From positions 1 to 59,837 of the forward strand of contig JAHIFE010000187.1 of assembly GCA_018901125.1 (NCBI GenBank): DNA of 59,837 nt, in the 5' to 3' direction. The translations under genes were made by a program, and so were the position numbers. Positions 984-59,837 of the stretch are shown here, in pieces. The stretch comes from Pseudomonadota bacterium. Lineage in GTDB: Bacteria > Desulfobacterota > Desulfobacteria > Desulfobacterales > RPRI01. The notes under the pieces were generated by a model. It ran no database searches and was not told where the DNA came from. It saw only the letters and a list, made by a program, of their open reading frames with translations. Every line of letters begins with the position of its first letter. The stretch's first letter is position 1.

Positions 984-1003
984 AAACGTTTTGAAAGTGG
1001 CTC
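984..1003 (+). repeat. solo right end of the 142-bp MITE-like family
   Basis: Twenty bases match the right terminus (GTTTTGAAAGTGGCTC at the tip) of the elements at 21373-21514 and 21754-21895. No matching left end is visible upstream, so this is a remnant. It lies about 55 bp before the penicillin-binding protein gene, in the same orientation as the second solo end at 4188-4211 just after that gene. Confidence 0.7.
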
Positions 1004-4187: not shown

Positions 4188-4211
4188 ACTGAAACGTTTT
4201 GAAAGTGGCTC
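4188..4211 (+). repeat. solo right end of the 142-bp MITE-like family
   Basis: Twenty-four bases match the right terminus of the full elements, ending GTTTTGAAAGTGGCTC. The left half is absent. Its last base (C4211) is also the third base, on the opposite strand, of the stop codon of the flavoprotein gene, so the repeat tip and the gene end share a nucleotide. Confidence 0.75.
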
Positions 4212-16217: not shown

Positions 16218-16260
16218 GAGCCAGTTTCAAAACGTTTCTGAAACGTTTTGAAACTGGCTC
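16218..16260. mobile_element. 43-bp palindromic deletion derivative of the MITE-like family
   Basis: This is a near-perfect palindrome with 21-bp arms and one central base, starting GAGCCAGTTTCAAAACG and ending with its complement. It equals the two termini of the 142-bp elements joined with the interior lost. It is flanked by the direct 4-bp duplication ATAT (16214-16217 and 16261-16264), so it probably inserted as such or lost its interior in place. The strong hairpin could also block transcription toward the envelope genes that follow. Confidence 0.8.
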
Positions 16261-19609: not shown

Positions 19610-21370
19610 ATGAGAAGATTGTATTGCCTGCTGATTATATCAGCCGCTTTATCTATTATATCACCTCCTAATTTGTATGCACAGAAAAAGGTTCTGGCAA
19701 TTTTCAACCTTACTGCAGCAAATATCGAAGCCATGGGTTATAACGGGGAAATCCTTCATGCTCTCATTTCATCTATTGAAACCGACAAGAGTATCGATCT
19801 GTTGCCAAGAAGGGAAATAGAAGAGATGCTTTTCAGAACTGACATTAATCTGGATAACTCTGAAAAAGCCGTGATTTTGGCCGGAAAAGCGCTTGGAATA
19901 AATTTTGTTCTTTTCGGGGAAGTTACCAAAAAAGGATCTATGATAGTAACACGGCTTAACTTGATGGATATTGAAGGCAAAACCATTCTGAATAGCTGGA
20001 GTGTGGTTTTTACGGACCACGATTCCATTCTTAAAAAAATTCCAAAAATTACTGAAGAGATAAGTACTGCTCTTTCAAATTGGAAAAGATCGTCAGGTAG
20101 CATAACAAATGAAAACAGATTGTCTCAATCAATAGATCTTGATTACCTTAATGTAATAAACGAAGGCGATTCGGTTGGTCTTTCATGGAAAATAAACACG
20201 CAAAAATCATCTTTATCATATAATGTCTATCGTTCGGAAAACAGTGATGGCCCTTACCAGTTCGTAGGAAGTACTTCGGATTGTTTTTATAAAGATACCA
20301 CGGTTAAAAAAGGACAGTCATATTACTACAACATAGGAATAATAGCTGAAACGGAACCGGAGATAAAAAGTTCTCATACCACGCAGATACAGAATGTCGG
20401 GCAAAGAGTACCGCGTCCTCCTCTGGTTATGGGTGCGAAAGGCTATATCAAAAGAGCCGAAATTAAGTTTGTTCCATCGCTTAAAAACGAACAGGATTAT
20501 TTTAACATAGTAAAATATAATTTATACCGTAAAAAAAATGAAAATGACTGGGAAAATATCAAAACGGTTGATTCAAAAAACATGACACAGACCGATCCGA
20601 TTATTACGGTTATAGATGAAAGCGGTTTAAATGACGGCGCAAATTATACCTATGCGCTTTCAAGCACCGATGATTCAAATATTGAAAGTCCTCTTTCCGA
20701 CCCTGTTTCAATTTCTACGGTAAAAGCTCCTGTATTAACTCTTGTAAGAGATGATCTGTTAAGAAAAATAAATCTTTCCTGGACATTTGTGGAAAACGCA
20801 TCGGGTTATAGTCTTTATAGAAAAACAGAAAATGCGTCCTGGGAAAAAGTAGCCGATATTACTGAGGTCTTAACAACAAATTTTTCTGATGTAAAAAATA
20901 TATCCGACGGCATACAGTACATCTATCGAATCACTGCTTATGATGACAAAAAGGAATCCGGCTGCTCGAACGAAGTTAAAGGAAAAACAAAAGAACTTCC
21001 CGGTTTTCCGGAAAACCTTCAATCTCAAGATAGTTTGGCTAAATCGGTTACTTTAACATGGACTGCTATAGAAGACCCTGATATCGGCGGTTATAATATT
21101 TACAGGGGTGCTGACTGCAATAATATGCAAAAAATTGCATCGATTAAAAACTATAGGTCAAACACATATTTCGACAAAGGTGATGCTTTAAAACCACTTG
21201 AAGACGGGAAAAATTATATATATTCATATCTTGAAAAAGGTGATGCCTTAAAACCGCTCGATGACGGGAAAAAATATTTCTATGCAATATCTGGTTTTAA
21301 CCTGTTTGATGCCGAAGGGAAGCGGAGCAATTGTATTGAGGCGGAAACAAAATCAGCATCTGTTAATTAG
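19610..21370 (+). CDS. exported CsgG-like + fibronectin type III repeat protein
   Basis: I chose ATG at 19610, which gives 586 residues and a clean signal peptide (LLIISAALSIISPPNLYAQ), with GGAG 10 nt upstream. An open frame extends 147 nt further out, but its sequence looks non-coding. Residues 25-155 form a CsgG/FlgT-middle-like domain (VLAIFNLTAANIEAMGY; LLPRREIEEMLF; LGINFVLFGEV). Four or so fibronectin type III-like modules follow (SLSYNVYRSENSDGPY; NLSWTFVENASGYSLYRK; GGYNIYRG). The last module contains a 20-residue tandem duplication (KGDALKPLxDGKxYxY twice). The stop codon overlaps the target duplication of the MITE-like element at 21373. Confidence 0.78.
   Translation: MRRLYCLLIISAALSIISPPNLYAQKKVLAIFNLTAANIEAMGYNGEILHALISSIETDKSIDLLPRREIEEMLFRTDINLDNSEKAVILAGKALGINFVLFGEVTKKGSMIVTRLNLMDIEGKTILNSWSVVFTDHDSILKKIPKITEEISTALSNWKRSSGSITNENRLSQSIDLDYLNVINEGDSVGLSWKINTQKSSLSYNVYRSENSDGPYQFVGSTSDCFYKDTTVKKGQSYYYNIGIIAETEPEIKSSHTTQIQNVGQRVPRPPLVMGAKGYIKRAEIKFVPSLKNEQDYFNIVKYNLYRKKNENDWENIKTVDSKNMTQTDPIITVIDESGLNDGANYTYALSSTDDSNIESPLSDPVSISTVKAPVLTLVRDDLLRKINLSWTFVENASGYSLYRKTENASWEKVADITEVLTTNFSDVKNISDGIQYIYRITAYDDKKESGCSNEVKGKTKELPGFPENLQSQDSLAKSVTLTWTAIEDPDIGGYNIYRGADCNNMQKIASIKNYRSNTYFDKGDALKPLEDGKNYIYSYLEKGDALKPLDDGKKYFYAISGFNLFDAEGKRSNCIEAETKSASVN
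21175..21284 (+). repeat. in-frame tandem duplication inside the FN3 protein gene
   Basis: Two copies of roughly 50 bp lie at a 60-bp period and code for KGDALKPLEDGKNYIY and KGDALKPLDDGKKYFY. They differ at several bases, mostly in synonymous or conservative positions, so the duplication is not brand new. It keeps frame and adds 20 residues to the last module. Confidence 0.85.
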
Positions 21371-21372
21371 TA

Positions 21373-21514
21373 GAGCCAGTTTCAAAACGTCCCATTTTAG
21401 CCGATCTCTGCGTTGGGCGAAAATTTTAATCCTCTAAATACTCCATGTATTCCTGCGGTTAAAATTTTCATCCGCCTTGACCTTGACCAAACTGAAACGT
21501 TTTGAAAGTGGCTC
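21373..21514. mobile_element. 142-bp MITE-like element, copy 1
   Basis: Terminal inverted repeats begin GAGCCAGTTTCAAAACGT on the left and end ACGTTTTGAAAGTGGCTC on the right. Inner inverted repeats GAAAATTTTAATCC and GGTTAAAATTTTC surround a central ATACTCCATGTATTCCTGC. It is flanked by the 4-bp direct repeat AGTA (21369-21372 and 21515-21518). It has no coding capacity, so it depends on a transposase encoded elsewhere. The left duplication overlaps the stop codon of the preceding gene. Confidence 0.88.
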
Positions 21515-21753
21515 AGTAGTAAAAAAAGACCATTAACGCTAAAACGTTTATCAACTCACTCGCTTTAGAATTTCATATAAGCTGATTTGCAGCCGCAGAA
21601 CAAAGGCCATTTTAAAATCCATGCGGTTCGGATTCGCTCTTATACCCCCCAATATTGACTCCGATTAGATGTTATGTAAAAATTCCTCTCGACTTCGTTG
21701 CTAAGAACGCCATTTGTGGTATAGAATTACTCTTCACGATGTGCTTAACTATG

Positions 21754-21895
21754 GAGCCAGTTTCAAAACGTCCCATTTTGGCCGATCTCTGCGTTGGATG
21801 AAAATTTTAATCCTCGAAATACTCCATGTATTCCTGCGGTTAAAATTTTCATCCGCCTTGACCTTGACCAAACTGAAACGTTTTAAAAGTGGTTC
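21754..21895. mobile_element. 142-bp MITE-like element, copy 2
   Basis: Same length and structure as copy 1, in the same orientation, with only a few base differences (the right tip reads GGTTC instead of GGCTC). The direct repeat TATG flanks it (21750-21753 and 21896-21899). The 235 bp between the two copies (21519-21749) show no coding sequence or motif that I can support. The AsmA-like gene starts 33 bp downstream. Confidence 0.88.
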
Positions 21896-21927
21896 TATGA
21901 TTTATTAATTTTATTATCAGTGAATAT

Positions 21928-24900
21928 ATGAAATTTATTAAAAAAATGTTGTTCTGGACAACATTCTGGACGGGTATTCTTTTAATAATCGCTCTTGTTA
22001 TATCGCTTTTACTGCCGCATATAATAAGCCCTGAATATCTTAAAAGCAAAATTGTAGAGCAGGTCTCTCTAAGGATAGGATATAAGATCAATCTCCAGAA
22101 TGTTGATATTATATTATTTCCACGTCTACATGCAGATATAAAAAATACAACATTATTGGTGCCTGGCAATTTTTCAGTAAATATAAACAGCATAAAAGCA
22201 TATCCTGAAATATGGCCTCTTCTTACAGGAAGTGTTAATATCAATAAGCTTTATCTTGATGCTCCCAATATAAAAATTAATATTCCGGAAAGGCTTTCTG
22301 GGGAAACCGACATACAGATAAATATTGCTTTACGGAAAATAGAAAAAAAGTTGTATGATTTTTTCAGGAGCCGAACATTAGAAAAAACAGATATACTTGT
22401 TGAAATCAGAAGCGGAAATATAGATCTTTATACCGGCAAACGTCTTTATTTCAATTTTGGAAGTATATTTTCCCACTTTAAGCTAAATCCAAAACATATT
22501 GAAATGGTATTGAACGCCAAATCAAATATCAGTAATAACATATCGATAAAAAGCCAATATTTTTCTGATAATTCAAATAATAATGGAAATATTAAGATAT
22601 ATAACCTGAATCCAAAACTGCTTTTTGATTATCTTTACCCTGATTCGGCTTTAAAGATCGCTGATTCCAAAGCAGATGTGCAAATATATTTTACTAAAAA
22701 AGGAGCTTTAAATTATAATGCAAAATTCAAAGGTAAAATTGATCATCTTTCGTTTAAAAGAAATAATGAAAATCTGATTCTTAACAGCAGGCATCTTTCC
22801 GGGGATATAAATATATATGGAGAAGAAACCAACATTAATATTGAAAAGTTTATTCTTGATAATACCGAATCAGTTTTTTCAGGAAGTTATGTTGTAAATA
22901 CTTCATATCCTTATGTACAGTTTGACTTGCAAGGTAAAGATATTGATATTAAAGAGACCGGAAAAATTGTACTATTTCTTACAGGGGAATCAAATACATT
23001 TCAGGAGATATTTAATGTATTAAAAGAGGGGAAGGTTCCGTCTGTAAGCATCACAGCCAAAGCCCCTCAGGTTTCGGAACTGGGAAATATCAAAAACATA
23101 TTTATAAAAGGAAGTGCTCTTAATACCAAAATATCTGTGCCTATGCCAGCGCTTGAGATTTATGATATAAAAAGCGAAGTAACTGTTTCGGGAGGAATTC
23201 TTGAAGCAATTAATGCAGAAGGCAGGCTTGGAAATTCGCTTGCGCAAAACGGAACGTTTAAACTCGGTCTTTCGGAAGACAGTAATTTATTTTACCTTGA
23301 TGCTTTCGTGAATGCCGATATTTCTCCTCTTCCTTCCATCCTCAAACAAGTTGTTAAAAACAAAAGCTTTTTAAAAGAATTATATTTAATAAAACAATGT
23401 GAAGGGAAAGCAGTAGGAAAACTGACTATCGATGAAAAAGCGGGGTCGTATTCCACAAAAGTTGATGTTTCAAAATTTGATATAAAAGGTGTTTACAGCC
23501 GATTCTCAAATCCTGTTGCTGTTATCGGAAATAAATTTTTCCTGGATGATTCCGTTGTTAAATTTATGGTTCTTAGTGCGACAACCGGGAATACTTCAGG
23601 TTCAAACCTGTCTGCCGAATTCAGATTTGATAAATATAATTCTTTTAAAATTTTATCCGAAAAAACAACTATAGATTCTAATGAGGCAAATCAGTTTATA
23701 CTACCTTTTCAAAGTGCAAAAAAATCAGCGGAACAATTTCATATCAGGAAAGGAACCGTTACCCTAAACAATATTGAGCTAAACGGTCCTCTTTTTGATC
23801 CTTCCAAATGGGTTTTAAAAACAGACGGCAAAATAGACAATATGATAGTTGATTGCAAATCGCTATTAAAAGAAGCAATTAATATAACAAACCTGAAATT
23901 TAATGCTTCCCAAAATAAAAGTAAACTTTTTCTAAAATTCACGGATGCATATTTTCGAAAAACTTTTATCCCGAATCTTTTTGCTGAATTTGGGCTTGAA
24001 AAGGATTACGATTTTAAAATTCGATCAGAACAAGCATCGATAGATGCTAAAGAGATCAATTTGTTTACACCATATTTTCAACTTACCGAAACTGTGAAAG
24101 AAAGTATTAATATTAACAAAGGAACAGCCTTGCTGTATAATTTTAATCTAAAAGGTCCTTTGTTTAAGCCTGATAAATGGTCTTATAAAACAGACGGTAA
24201 AATAGGGAATATGCTTGTTGATTATAAATCGGTTTTTAGAGAACCACTTAATATAACAAAATTAAATTTCAAAGCATCCAGAAATTTTACAGACAATAAT
24301 TCAGGGCAAAATAAATATAAAATTGAAGATGGATATATTTCATCAGGCAAAAGCCATATAACTATTGATGGTGATATCGAATTATTAAAAGAAGAATTGC
24401 TGCTGGATATAAGAGCTTTTTCAGAATCCCTGTACTGGGCGGATATAAAGGAGCTGATAAATCAGCCCGCTATTAAAAGCTGTCCGGCAGAAAAAGCACC
24501 GACTTCATTTGTAAAAGGGATTATCCGTACACATATAGATAATTTTATATATGACGATTACACATTACATCCTGTTAAAGCAGATATTTTATTTGGTCAA
24601 AAAAAAATAATAAGTATTGCTGTTTCAGAAGCAAATATTTGTGGAATTTCATTAACAGGAAAAATTGAGGCATGCCCAACAAAAGTAGAATTTAAAATAA
24701 ATCCTTTTGCAAGAGATCAAGAGATTGAGCCTTGCCTCAAATGTTTTTGGAAAGGCAAGCATCTTGCGACAGGGATTTATAATCTTAAAGGTAATATTTA
24801 TTCAAAAGGAGAAGAAAAAGAAATTTCAAAGCTGCTTTATGGAGTTCTTGAATTTAATGCAAGCAAGGGAAGGATATACAGACTCGGATTTCTTTCAAAG

Positions 24901-43812: not shown

Positions 43813-44032
43813 TAATTGCGCCTCATAATAAATTTATATTAAAATATATCTTAACACATGGTATGTGCTATTATATCTGCTTGTCAGGAGTATATAGCAT
43901 GCCTATGAAAAAGGTAAAGTTTAAAAGTCGTTGCATACGGTTTCTTTTACCCGGTTTGCGCTATAGCTTTACTACCATACTTACTTTAGATATAAATCTT
44001 GCATAAAGTGATACGGAGTAAAGATTAATTGC

Positions 44033-44090
44033 TATCCTTTAAAACACTCCATTTATCCCGGTGGTTGAAATCCTCACCTTCAATGAACTT
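44033..44090. repeat. possible decayed copy of the MITE-like element interior
   Basis: AAAACACTCCATTTATCCCG followed by GTGGTTGAAATCCTCACC aligns with the central part of the 142-bp element (AATACTCCATGTATTCCTGC, GGTTAAAATTTTC) at roughly two-thirds identity by eye. Terminal repeats are not recognisable. The rest of 43813-44281 holds nothing else I can support. Confidence 0.3.
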
Positions 44091-44281
44091 GAGAACAATG
44101 TAATATTCTTGCAAGTTTTCGATTTTTAACCGTCTGATATTAGAAGACGGAATATTTGTAAGTCGTCAATTTTTTTTGTTTTAACCATGAATATTTAATG
44201 AATTGTTTGCTTTTTGTTAAATATGATCTTATATAACTAATTATATTTTTTAAGAATAGTCAAGAGATTTTGTTAAAATCA

Positions 44282-58676: not shown

Positions 58677-59681
58677 ATGCCAAGAAAATCCAGAATAGAT
58701 GCCGAAGGGGCAATAAATCATGTGATCGCACGTGGAATAAACAAAGAAGATATATTTTCCGACGATGCGGACTATAAAAGTTTTTTGAACAGGCTGGGAG
58801 TTGTATTAATGGATACTAAAACAGCCTGTTATGCATGGGCATTGCTGCCGAATCATTTTCATCTGCTGCTTCGTACCGGAAATACACCTGTATCAATGAT
58901 TATGCGAAGGCTTCTTACCGGTTATGCCGTTAATTATAATCACCGGCACAAACGTTCCGGCCATCTGTTTCAGAACCGGTATAAATCGGTTCTATGTCAG
59001 GAAGAACCATATTTGAAAGAACTGGTACGTTACATTCATTTGAACCCTTTGCGTGGGGGTATAATTTCGGATTACAGGTCATTGGGACGGTATTCTTATT
59101 GCGGTCATGGGGTCATACTGGGATTTTTAAAAAATGACTGGCAGGATACAGACTACATAATTAACCTGTTTGATAGTAGTAAAAGACCAAGCAGAAGAGG
59201 TTATTCGGATTTTGTTCGGAAAGCAGTTAATCAGGGCAGTCGTCCCGAGCTAACAGGAGGAGGCCTTTTGCGAAGCCAGGGAGGATGGACAGGGGTTAAG
59301 GCTCTTAGAAAAAGCGGTGAATATCAGAAAGGTGATGAGAGAATATTGGGGGATAGTGATTTTGTGACATCTGTTTTATCTGATGCGAATGAGTCAATGG
59401 ACCGTAAATATCAACTTAAAGCAAAAGGATATAATTTAAAAGATTTGATTGAGCGGGTAGCAGAGGTTACTGGAATAACATCCGAAGATATTATTCGTTC
59501 CGGAAGGAGGCGCAAGACATCTGCTGCGCGCGATCTGCTCTGTTACTGGGCAACCGAATATCTGGGAGTCAAGCAGCGGGAGCTATCAGAGCTTTTGAAT
59601 GTAACTCAATCTGCAATCAGTATGTCAACAGTTCGCGGACGTTTACATGCAGAAGAACTGAAATTGAATTTTGGAACATAA
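58677..59681 (+). CDS. REP-associated Y1/HUH transposase with DnaA-like C-terminal domain
   Basis: The 334-residue protein begins MPRKSRIDAEGAINHVIARG and has the HUH motif H60-F-H62 (LLPNHFHLLL), then SGHLFQNRYKSV and YLKELVRYIHLNPLRGG with Tyr112 or Tyr119 as the candidate nucleophile. The last 90 residues (IERVAEVTGITSEDIIRSGRR; RQRELSELLNVTQSAISMS-like) resemble the DnaA DNA-binding domain often fused to these enzymes. Such RAYT proteins act on REP hairpins by single-strand transposition. REP-like units occur at 43-112, 8053-8079 and 42721-42834. A MITE-like copy starts 16 bp downstream, although its 4-bp duplications are not expected from this class. Confidence 0.87.
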   Translation: MPRKSRIDAEGAINHVIARGINKEDIFSDDADYKSFLNRLGVVLMDTKTACYAWALLPNHFHLLLRTGNTPVSMIMRRLLTGYAVNYNHRHKRSGHLFQNRYKSVLCQEEPYLKELVRYIHLNPLRGGIISDYRSLGRYSYCGHGVILGFLKNDWQDTDYIINLFDSSKRPSRRGYSDFVRKAVNQGSRPELTGGGLLRSQGGWTGVKALRKSGEYQKGDERILGDSDFVTSVLSDANESMDRKYQLKAKGYNLKDLIERVAEVTGITSEDIIRSGRRRKTSAARDLLCYWATEYLGVKQRELSELLNVTQSAISMSTVRGRLHAEELKLNFGT

Positions 59682-59697
59682 TCAACTTATATAAGTA

Positions 59698-59837
59698 GAG
59701 CCAGTTTCAAAACGTCCCATTTTGGCCGATCTCTGCGTTGGGTGAAAATTTTAATCCTCGAAATACTCCATGTATTCCTGCGGTTAAAATTTTCATCCGC
59801 CTTGACCTTGACCAAACTGAAACGTTTTGAAAGTGGC
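59698..59837. mobile_element. 142-bp MITE-like element, copy 3 (cut by the window end)
   Basis: Identical in structure and nearly identical in sequence to copies 1 and 2: it starts GAGCCAGTTTCAAAACGT and runs to GTTTTGAAAGTGGC at the last base. Only the final two bases are missing. The left flank is AGTA (59694-59697), the same four bases as the duplication around copy 1. The right flank is outside the window. Confidence 0.85.

Follow-up and report, generated by a model that had tools for sequence, protein, structure and literature searches.

Short repeats of one length recur in the genome of a member of the Desulfobacterales, which raises the question of whether they are products of transposition, what moves them, and which of their parts holds the family together. 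We analyzed a stretch of 59,837 nucleotides (contig JAHIFE010000187.1 of assembly GCA_018901125.1; hereafter, the window), in which an earlier note had recognized a MITE-like family of 142 bp. The MITE view was supported but incomplete: the interior of the element is conserved over the order and the phylum, whereas the ends differ.

Copies and traces of transposition

The two complete copies reported in the window, 239 bp apart, are both 142 bp long and carry terminal and inner repeats (Table 1). The terminal inverted repeats are 17 bp with one mismatch (GAGCCAGTTTCAAAACG / GAGCCACTTTCAAAACG), and the inner inverted repeat is real, as the element consensus equals its own reverse complement at 86 of 142 positions. 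The third copy shares the repeats (98% identity over 140 bp) and its left flank is AGTA too, but it is not of full length as had been stated: the window end is the contig end, and the last two bases and the right flank are missing. The earlier note had missed a 43-bp ends-only version, two solo ends, and a possible decayed core in the window. Solo ends of 17–24 bp without a partner also occur at L157, L160, L162, and L163, and some abut gene ends.

Table 1. Parts of the element family located in the window
Feature	Position	Strand	Remark
Complete 142-bp element, copy 1, type T1 ends	21373..21514	+	
Copy 1, left target duplication AGTA	21369..21372		
Copy 1, right target duplication AGTA	21515..21518		
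Copy 1, conserved hairpin core	21395..21491	+	core model 109.6 bits, E 3.2e-22 (same-family model)
Complete 142-bp element, copy 2	21754..21895	+	orthologous site empty in G005
Copy 2, left target duplication TATG	21750..21753		
Copy 2, right target duplication TATG	21896..21899		
Copy 2, conserved hairpin core	21776..21872	+	core model 117.8 bits
Copy 3, 140 of 142 bp, cut at contig end	59698..59837	+	
Copy 3, conserved hairpin core	59720..59816	+	core model 116.2 bits
Ends-only version, 43 bp, flanks ATAT/ATAT	16218..16260	+	
Solo T1-type end	984..1003	-	
Solo T1-type end	4188..4211	-	
Possible decayed core copy, weak	43997..44097	+	core model 20.2 bits, E = 0.046

A search of the whole own genome with the ends, proposed earlier as a check, gave 487 matches (232 + 255) to the 17-bp end when up to one mismatch was allowed. 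These are not chance matches, because the reversed-pattern control gave 0. The same check was meant to reveal a full-length IS with the same termini, and in this part it failed, with only some transposase families searched. We estimate from the end counts that the own genome holds about 240 copies, and a number of its contigs start or stop inside a copy.

The 4-bp flank duplications AGTA/AGTA and TATG/TATG are exact at both complete copies, as had been claimed. Pooled over several genomes, 87 of the 126 flank-complete copies had exact 4-bp duplications, compared with 2.3 on average and at most 9 in 2000 shuffles of the flank pairing. Of the remaining 39 copies, 17 agree at three of the four positions and 4 show a 5-bp match; such inexact duplications would be expected if copies had aged, although this is not shown. 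In the first own-genome loci, the duplication was exact at 33 of 40 flank-complete copies (a set that includes one spurious 246-bp pairing, in L002), and in the fetched stretches the proportion was 20/25 for the own genome and 17/26 for the congener G005. Target preference at the 87 sites was symmetric, with C (49%; G 2%) just before the duplication and G (52%; C 0%) just after it. Three bases beyond these positions, A (61%) and T (67%) were favored. In addition, the orthologous intergenic region of copy 2 in G005 has a single TATG without the element, so that the search for empty sites in relatives suggested earlier was successful at the one site tested. At the other orthologous loci of the genus (L222–L229), no end was listed with up to four mismatches.

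Fixed-length duplications, symmetric target sites, and an empty site are hallmarks of DDE transposition. The claim that the repeats are transposition products thus rests on the duplications in 87 of 126 copies, the symmetric target sites, and the empty G005 site for copy 2. The window repeats are 142-bp non-autonomous DNA transposons of the MITE kind. Apart from an autonomous partner, which is unidentified, they have the features of such elements (short, modal length 142 bp, terminal inverted repeats, target duplications, and one empty site). Copies without duplications, or sites occupied in all relatives, had been named as grounds for refutation. These were generally not encountered, yet 39 of the 126 copies lack an exact duplication and one insertion is shared. 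In the latter case, two MAGs under separate names carry one insertion between identical flanks (L209:525-676 and L219:3813-3964), apparently through vertical inheritance of the site.

The lengths of flank-complete copies range from 37 to 188 bp (mode: 142 bp). In minimal versions (37 and 43 bp), there is hardly more than the two ends; 4-bp duplications flank two of three such versions and are absent from the third (L151:11893). Versions of 165 and 188 bp (L098:1511-1675, L102:6815-6979, L112:18676-18863, and L118:8833-9020) contain extra small-palindrome modules of the GCACTTTAGTGAAGCTTTAGCGCTA type at one position in the core, and a similar module is present in another family (L063, G088).

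Search for the mobilizing enzyme

Presumably, a DDE-type transposase moves the element. This enzyme, which is inferred and was not found, would recognize the 17-bp terminal inverted repeats in trans and act with a 4-bp target stagger. The absence from the window of a transposase with matching ends, noted previously, held for the families searched. Among the DDE_Tnp_1 loci, 7 from the own genome and 29 from six other carriers, not one was bounded by the ends together with a matching duplication, and the DUF772 and DDE_Tnp_4 profiles had no own-genome match at E ≤ 0.01. In 1.53 Mb of sequence, with ORFs judged by eye, no partner autonomous element was seen; 26 distant end-like pairs with matching 4-mers in this sequence enclosed no transposase-like gene among the longest ORFs listed for them, again by eye. 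The 400 kb read from G292 contained further end types and no parent IS. These negative results cover only some families (IS701 and IS1380 were not included), and an assembly of 241 contigs may miss multi-copy elements.

Two candidates for a parent IS were rejected: the end beside a DDE_Tnp_1 gene in G050 (L207) apparently belongs to a decayed MITE copy, and the transposase fragment between T1 ends 1769 bp apart at L132 lies between two separate MITEs whose flanks mismatch. End matches outside known MITEs were solo ends, mini-elements, or probable chance matches in distant taxa (Treponema, Coriobacteriaceae, Sphingomonadales, Chryseobacterium, Gastranaerophilales, and others). At position 658 of L215, from an Atribacterota MAG (CSMAG_886), there is an element end of the G088 subtype without a core match, which may reflect contamination or transfer.

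A Y1 gene at 58677–59681 ends 16 bp before copy 3; its product scores above the cut-off for Pfam Y1_Tnp and below that for NCBIfam REP_Tyr_transpos, and has a DnaA_C-like match. The element could therefore be REPIN/BIME-like and moved by this neighboring REP-associated tyrosine transposase, as its high copy number, mostly intergenic location, palindromic structure, and solo ends would allow. However, the element has diverse 4-bp target duplications, and to our knowledge Y1 (HUH) transposition makes none. Furthermore, an element end lies within about 1.5 kb at 4 of 16 Y1-gene loci, against about 2.7 expected from copy density by our own arithmetic (the 16 loci are a lower bound, as the PF01797 genome search missed the window's own Y1 gene). 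Given the target duplications and the lack of enrichment near Y1 genes, we rejected RAYT/Y1 mobilization, which is barely credible here.

End types around a shared core

In the order, matches to the whole element were obtained for 250 of 389 genomes and 93 of 150 genera, with up to two places scored per genome. Many of the weaker matches stop about 22 bp short of each end. In a survey of end patterns in 96 genomes, the window's pattern was present in 12 (own genome included), and at least 57 of the 96 have an element match; the figure of 12 is too low for type T1, since diverged T1 ends, for example in G057 (L261), escape the pattern. T1-like ends are present at most of the top-scoring loci that we read (L238–L264). 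At E ≤ 0.001, a core covariance model found matches in 80 of the 395 genomes searched across the phylum; 70 of these 80 lie outside the order, and by our count 58 fell below E 1e-8. The model E-values are rough, and the weakest matches, near the threshold, may be due to chance. Named core carriers are Deltaproteobacteria and Desulfobacteraceae MAGs. Several queries against phages, plasmids, E. coli, and viral contigs gave no match, although these did not amount to an exhaustive covariance-model search.

The same core of about 97 bp stands between at least six types of terminal repeat, each roughly 21–23 bp long (Table 2). Mean flank identity peaks at the duplication length of each type. It is also high at 2 bp for T3 and T4 (0.76 and 0.88), because TA is present at the junction. 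Every type has a modal element length of 141 or 142 bp, and T6 copies of 139–140 bp are found as well. Ends on 17 of 157 cores remained unclassed, and the samples are small for T5 (n = 5) and T6 (n = 2, plus 2).

Table 2. Terminal repeat types and their target duplications (only end pairs 101–214 bp apart are counted)
Type	End	Duplication	Exact	Within one mismatch	Mean flank identity
T1	GAGCCASTTTCAAAACG	4 bp	94/143	117/143	0.83
T2	GAGACCTTTGCAAAACG	5 bp	12/39	22/39	0.72
T3	GTGYCCATCC	6 bp, mostly inexact	1/21	10/21	0.63
T4	GTGCCYGAACG	6 bp	4/8	7/8	0.88
T5	GGGTACCTTG	4 bp	4/5	5/5	0.95
T6	CAGGCTGTTACAG	4 bp	2/2; two further copies (few), both TCGA/TCGA		1.0

Could the ends have simply drifted with one evolving transposase in a single MITE lineage, without any end exchange? 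A motif beside the core, AAAACG, is common to T1 and T2, and GTGYC is common to T3 and T4; drift may thus indeed relate some types (T1/T2 and T3/T4), and the nearly equal modal length across types is compatible with it. Cores of the same type are also somewhat more alike: median identity between different genomes was 0.845 within types and 0.796 between types (6880 pairs), leaving out cores that lay less than 35 bp from the end of a locus or had over 12 unaligned positions. On the other hand, T5, T6, and several unclassed ends have no evident resemblance to T1, the best duplication length varies among 4, 5, and 6 bp, and TA stands at both junctions in T3 and T4. Moreover, several types coexist within single genomes (G292, G045, G207, G112, and G260). 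Drift is less likely than end exchange because the duplication length changes and the types coexist, and as a full account we hold it to be improbable. End counts differ strongly between congeners; the congener G006 has no match to the T1 end pattern and carries T2 ends on 8 of the 9 copies read. T1 ends are present in G000, G005, and G009 of the same genus.

The explanation that we consider probable is that these are MITEs with a conserved core that was refitted by repeated end exchange and served by several transposases. The simplest inference from the ends and duplication lengths is that the core lineage exchanged its ends several times and would thus have been moved by several enzymes. Since no autonomous element was found for any end type, the notion of different transposases rests on end sequence and duplication length. 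As to the route, we can only speculate: the palindromic arms might allow ends to be swapped through recombination or template switching, or the core might have landed inside another mini-element, between its ends. The data do not demonstrate a recent exchange in situ, because cores of different types within one genome are not especially close (identity 0.765, 21 pairs). Our literature searches found no precedent for a shared core with different ends, with subscription papers largely outside their scope.

The conserved core and comparison with known systems

The core is an imperfect palindrome with a nearly invariant apex, AATCCTCGAAATAC...GTATTCCTGCGGTT. Its covariance model was built on alignment A1, which consists of 64 cores and that of window copy 2, from 78 of 209 distinct cores (mainly L238 upward, 94–100 bp); the 14 cores omitted were near-duplicates and one insertion variant (L315). 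The match of copy 2 to the model is therefore by construction. Across these 65 chosen cores and 18 consensus pairs, 97.2% of cells were paired, and double-change cells numbered 113, against 36.4 in shuffles (0/500) and far above slid versions. As single-stranded DNA, copy 2 folds at −26.2 kcal/mol (z = −6.5).

Covariation of this kind does not necessarily mean selection on the hairpin. Palindrome-templated mutation (quasipalindrome correction) is known in bacteria, and the whole element is an imperfect palindrome, so that the covariation could partly come from this process. However, the mismatch at pair 36/64 is T-G in 148 of 148 cores and was never corrected, and most outer positions are non-complementary in the one register tested. 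That templated mutation alone accounts for the stem, with no selection, is possible but rather unlikely.

The compensatory stem changes and the nearly invariant apex would also be expected of a structured RNA or cis-regulatory element that is kept for its benefit to the host, with the MITE ends as incidental vehicles. Consistent with this, 68 of 80 copies lie outside ORFs of at least 90 aa, although the same simple ORF rule counts 86% of the sequence as coding. Orientation relative to tandem neighbor genes, however, shows no preference (17 same, 17 opposite), and wobble pairs point to no consistent strand: 148 distinct cores of 93–101 bp contain 19 G-U and 41 A-C cells, excluding the one invariant T-G pair. 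Rfam gave no element match at the gathering score in window positions 21300–22000 and in eight loci with other copies; the best score over the element was 31.8 bits, where 79 are needed, to a plant-type miRNA family at L278. The strong variation of end counts between congeners also argues against a host-useful core, which we regard as quite unlikely. A strand-specific RNA role is unsupported by the orientation and wobble data, and the core is likelier to be a DNA hairpin, albeit by weak inference.

Returning to the refitted MITE, we tentatively propose, with somewhat more doubt than confidence, that the hairpin of about 97 bp is itself the selfish unit, a satellite indifferent to the transposase, which would persist throughout the phylum by taking on, at a nearly fixed spacing of about 22 bp on both sides, the ends of whichever transposon is active in its host. 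The ends are what usually defines a non-autonomous transposon, and its lineage should not survive the loss of its transposase. With a hairpin whose centre persists while its ends are replaced, we would see how a tiny gene-less parasite can outlast any one transposase. Surveys that group MITEs by terminal repeats would split one family into many, and the role of the conserved centre (hairpin formation, host-factor binding, or RNA) would become directly testable.

A hairpin at L211:5390-5489 (−) shares with the core the base TGCGTTG/CGCCTTG and the apex TCGACATAC..ATGTAT (R1 match, E 0.00094), while its stem is wholly different and its terminal repeats differ as well. If the hairpin is the selfish unit, this one would belong to a still wider class.

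Among known systems, the IS5, IS1182, IS701, and IS1380 groups have duplications of about 4 bp and short terminal repeats. The window element resembles them in both respects, although no member with the window ends was found (IS701 and IS1380 profiles being outside the search). Insofar as the available part of the source describes them, REPINs and BIMEs with RAYT likewise form many intergenic inverted-repeat hairpins (PMC3733652). Unlike these, the window family has fixed-length target duplications and no detectable linkage to Y1 genes. MITEs usually keep their ends and vary inside. In bacterial examples such as Chunjie (Geobacter uraniireducens) and the QMITEs (Coxiella), it is the ends and the direct repeats that are better conserved, to judge from the portion of the source available to us (PMC10969869). 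On the same partial basis, the window element is similar to these in being short, non-coding, and mostly intergenic, with terminal inverted repeats, target duplications, size variants, and truncated copies, whereas it differs in that its interior is conserved across the phylum and its ends and duplication lengths change (PMC10969869). The window family thus reverses the usual conservation pattern of MITEs: the interior is kept and the ends are changed.
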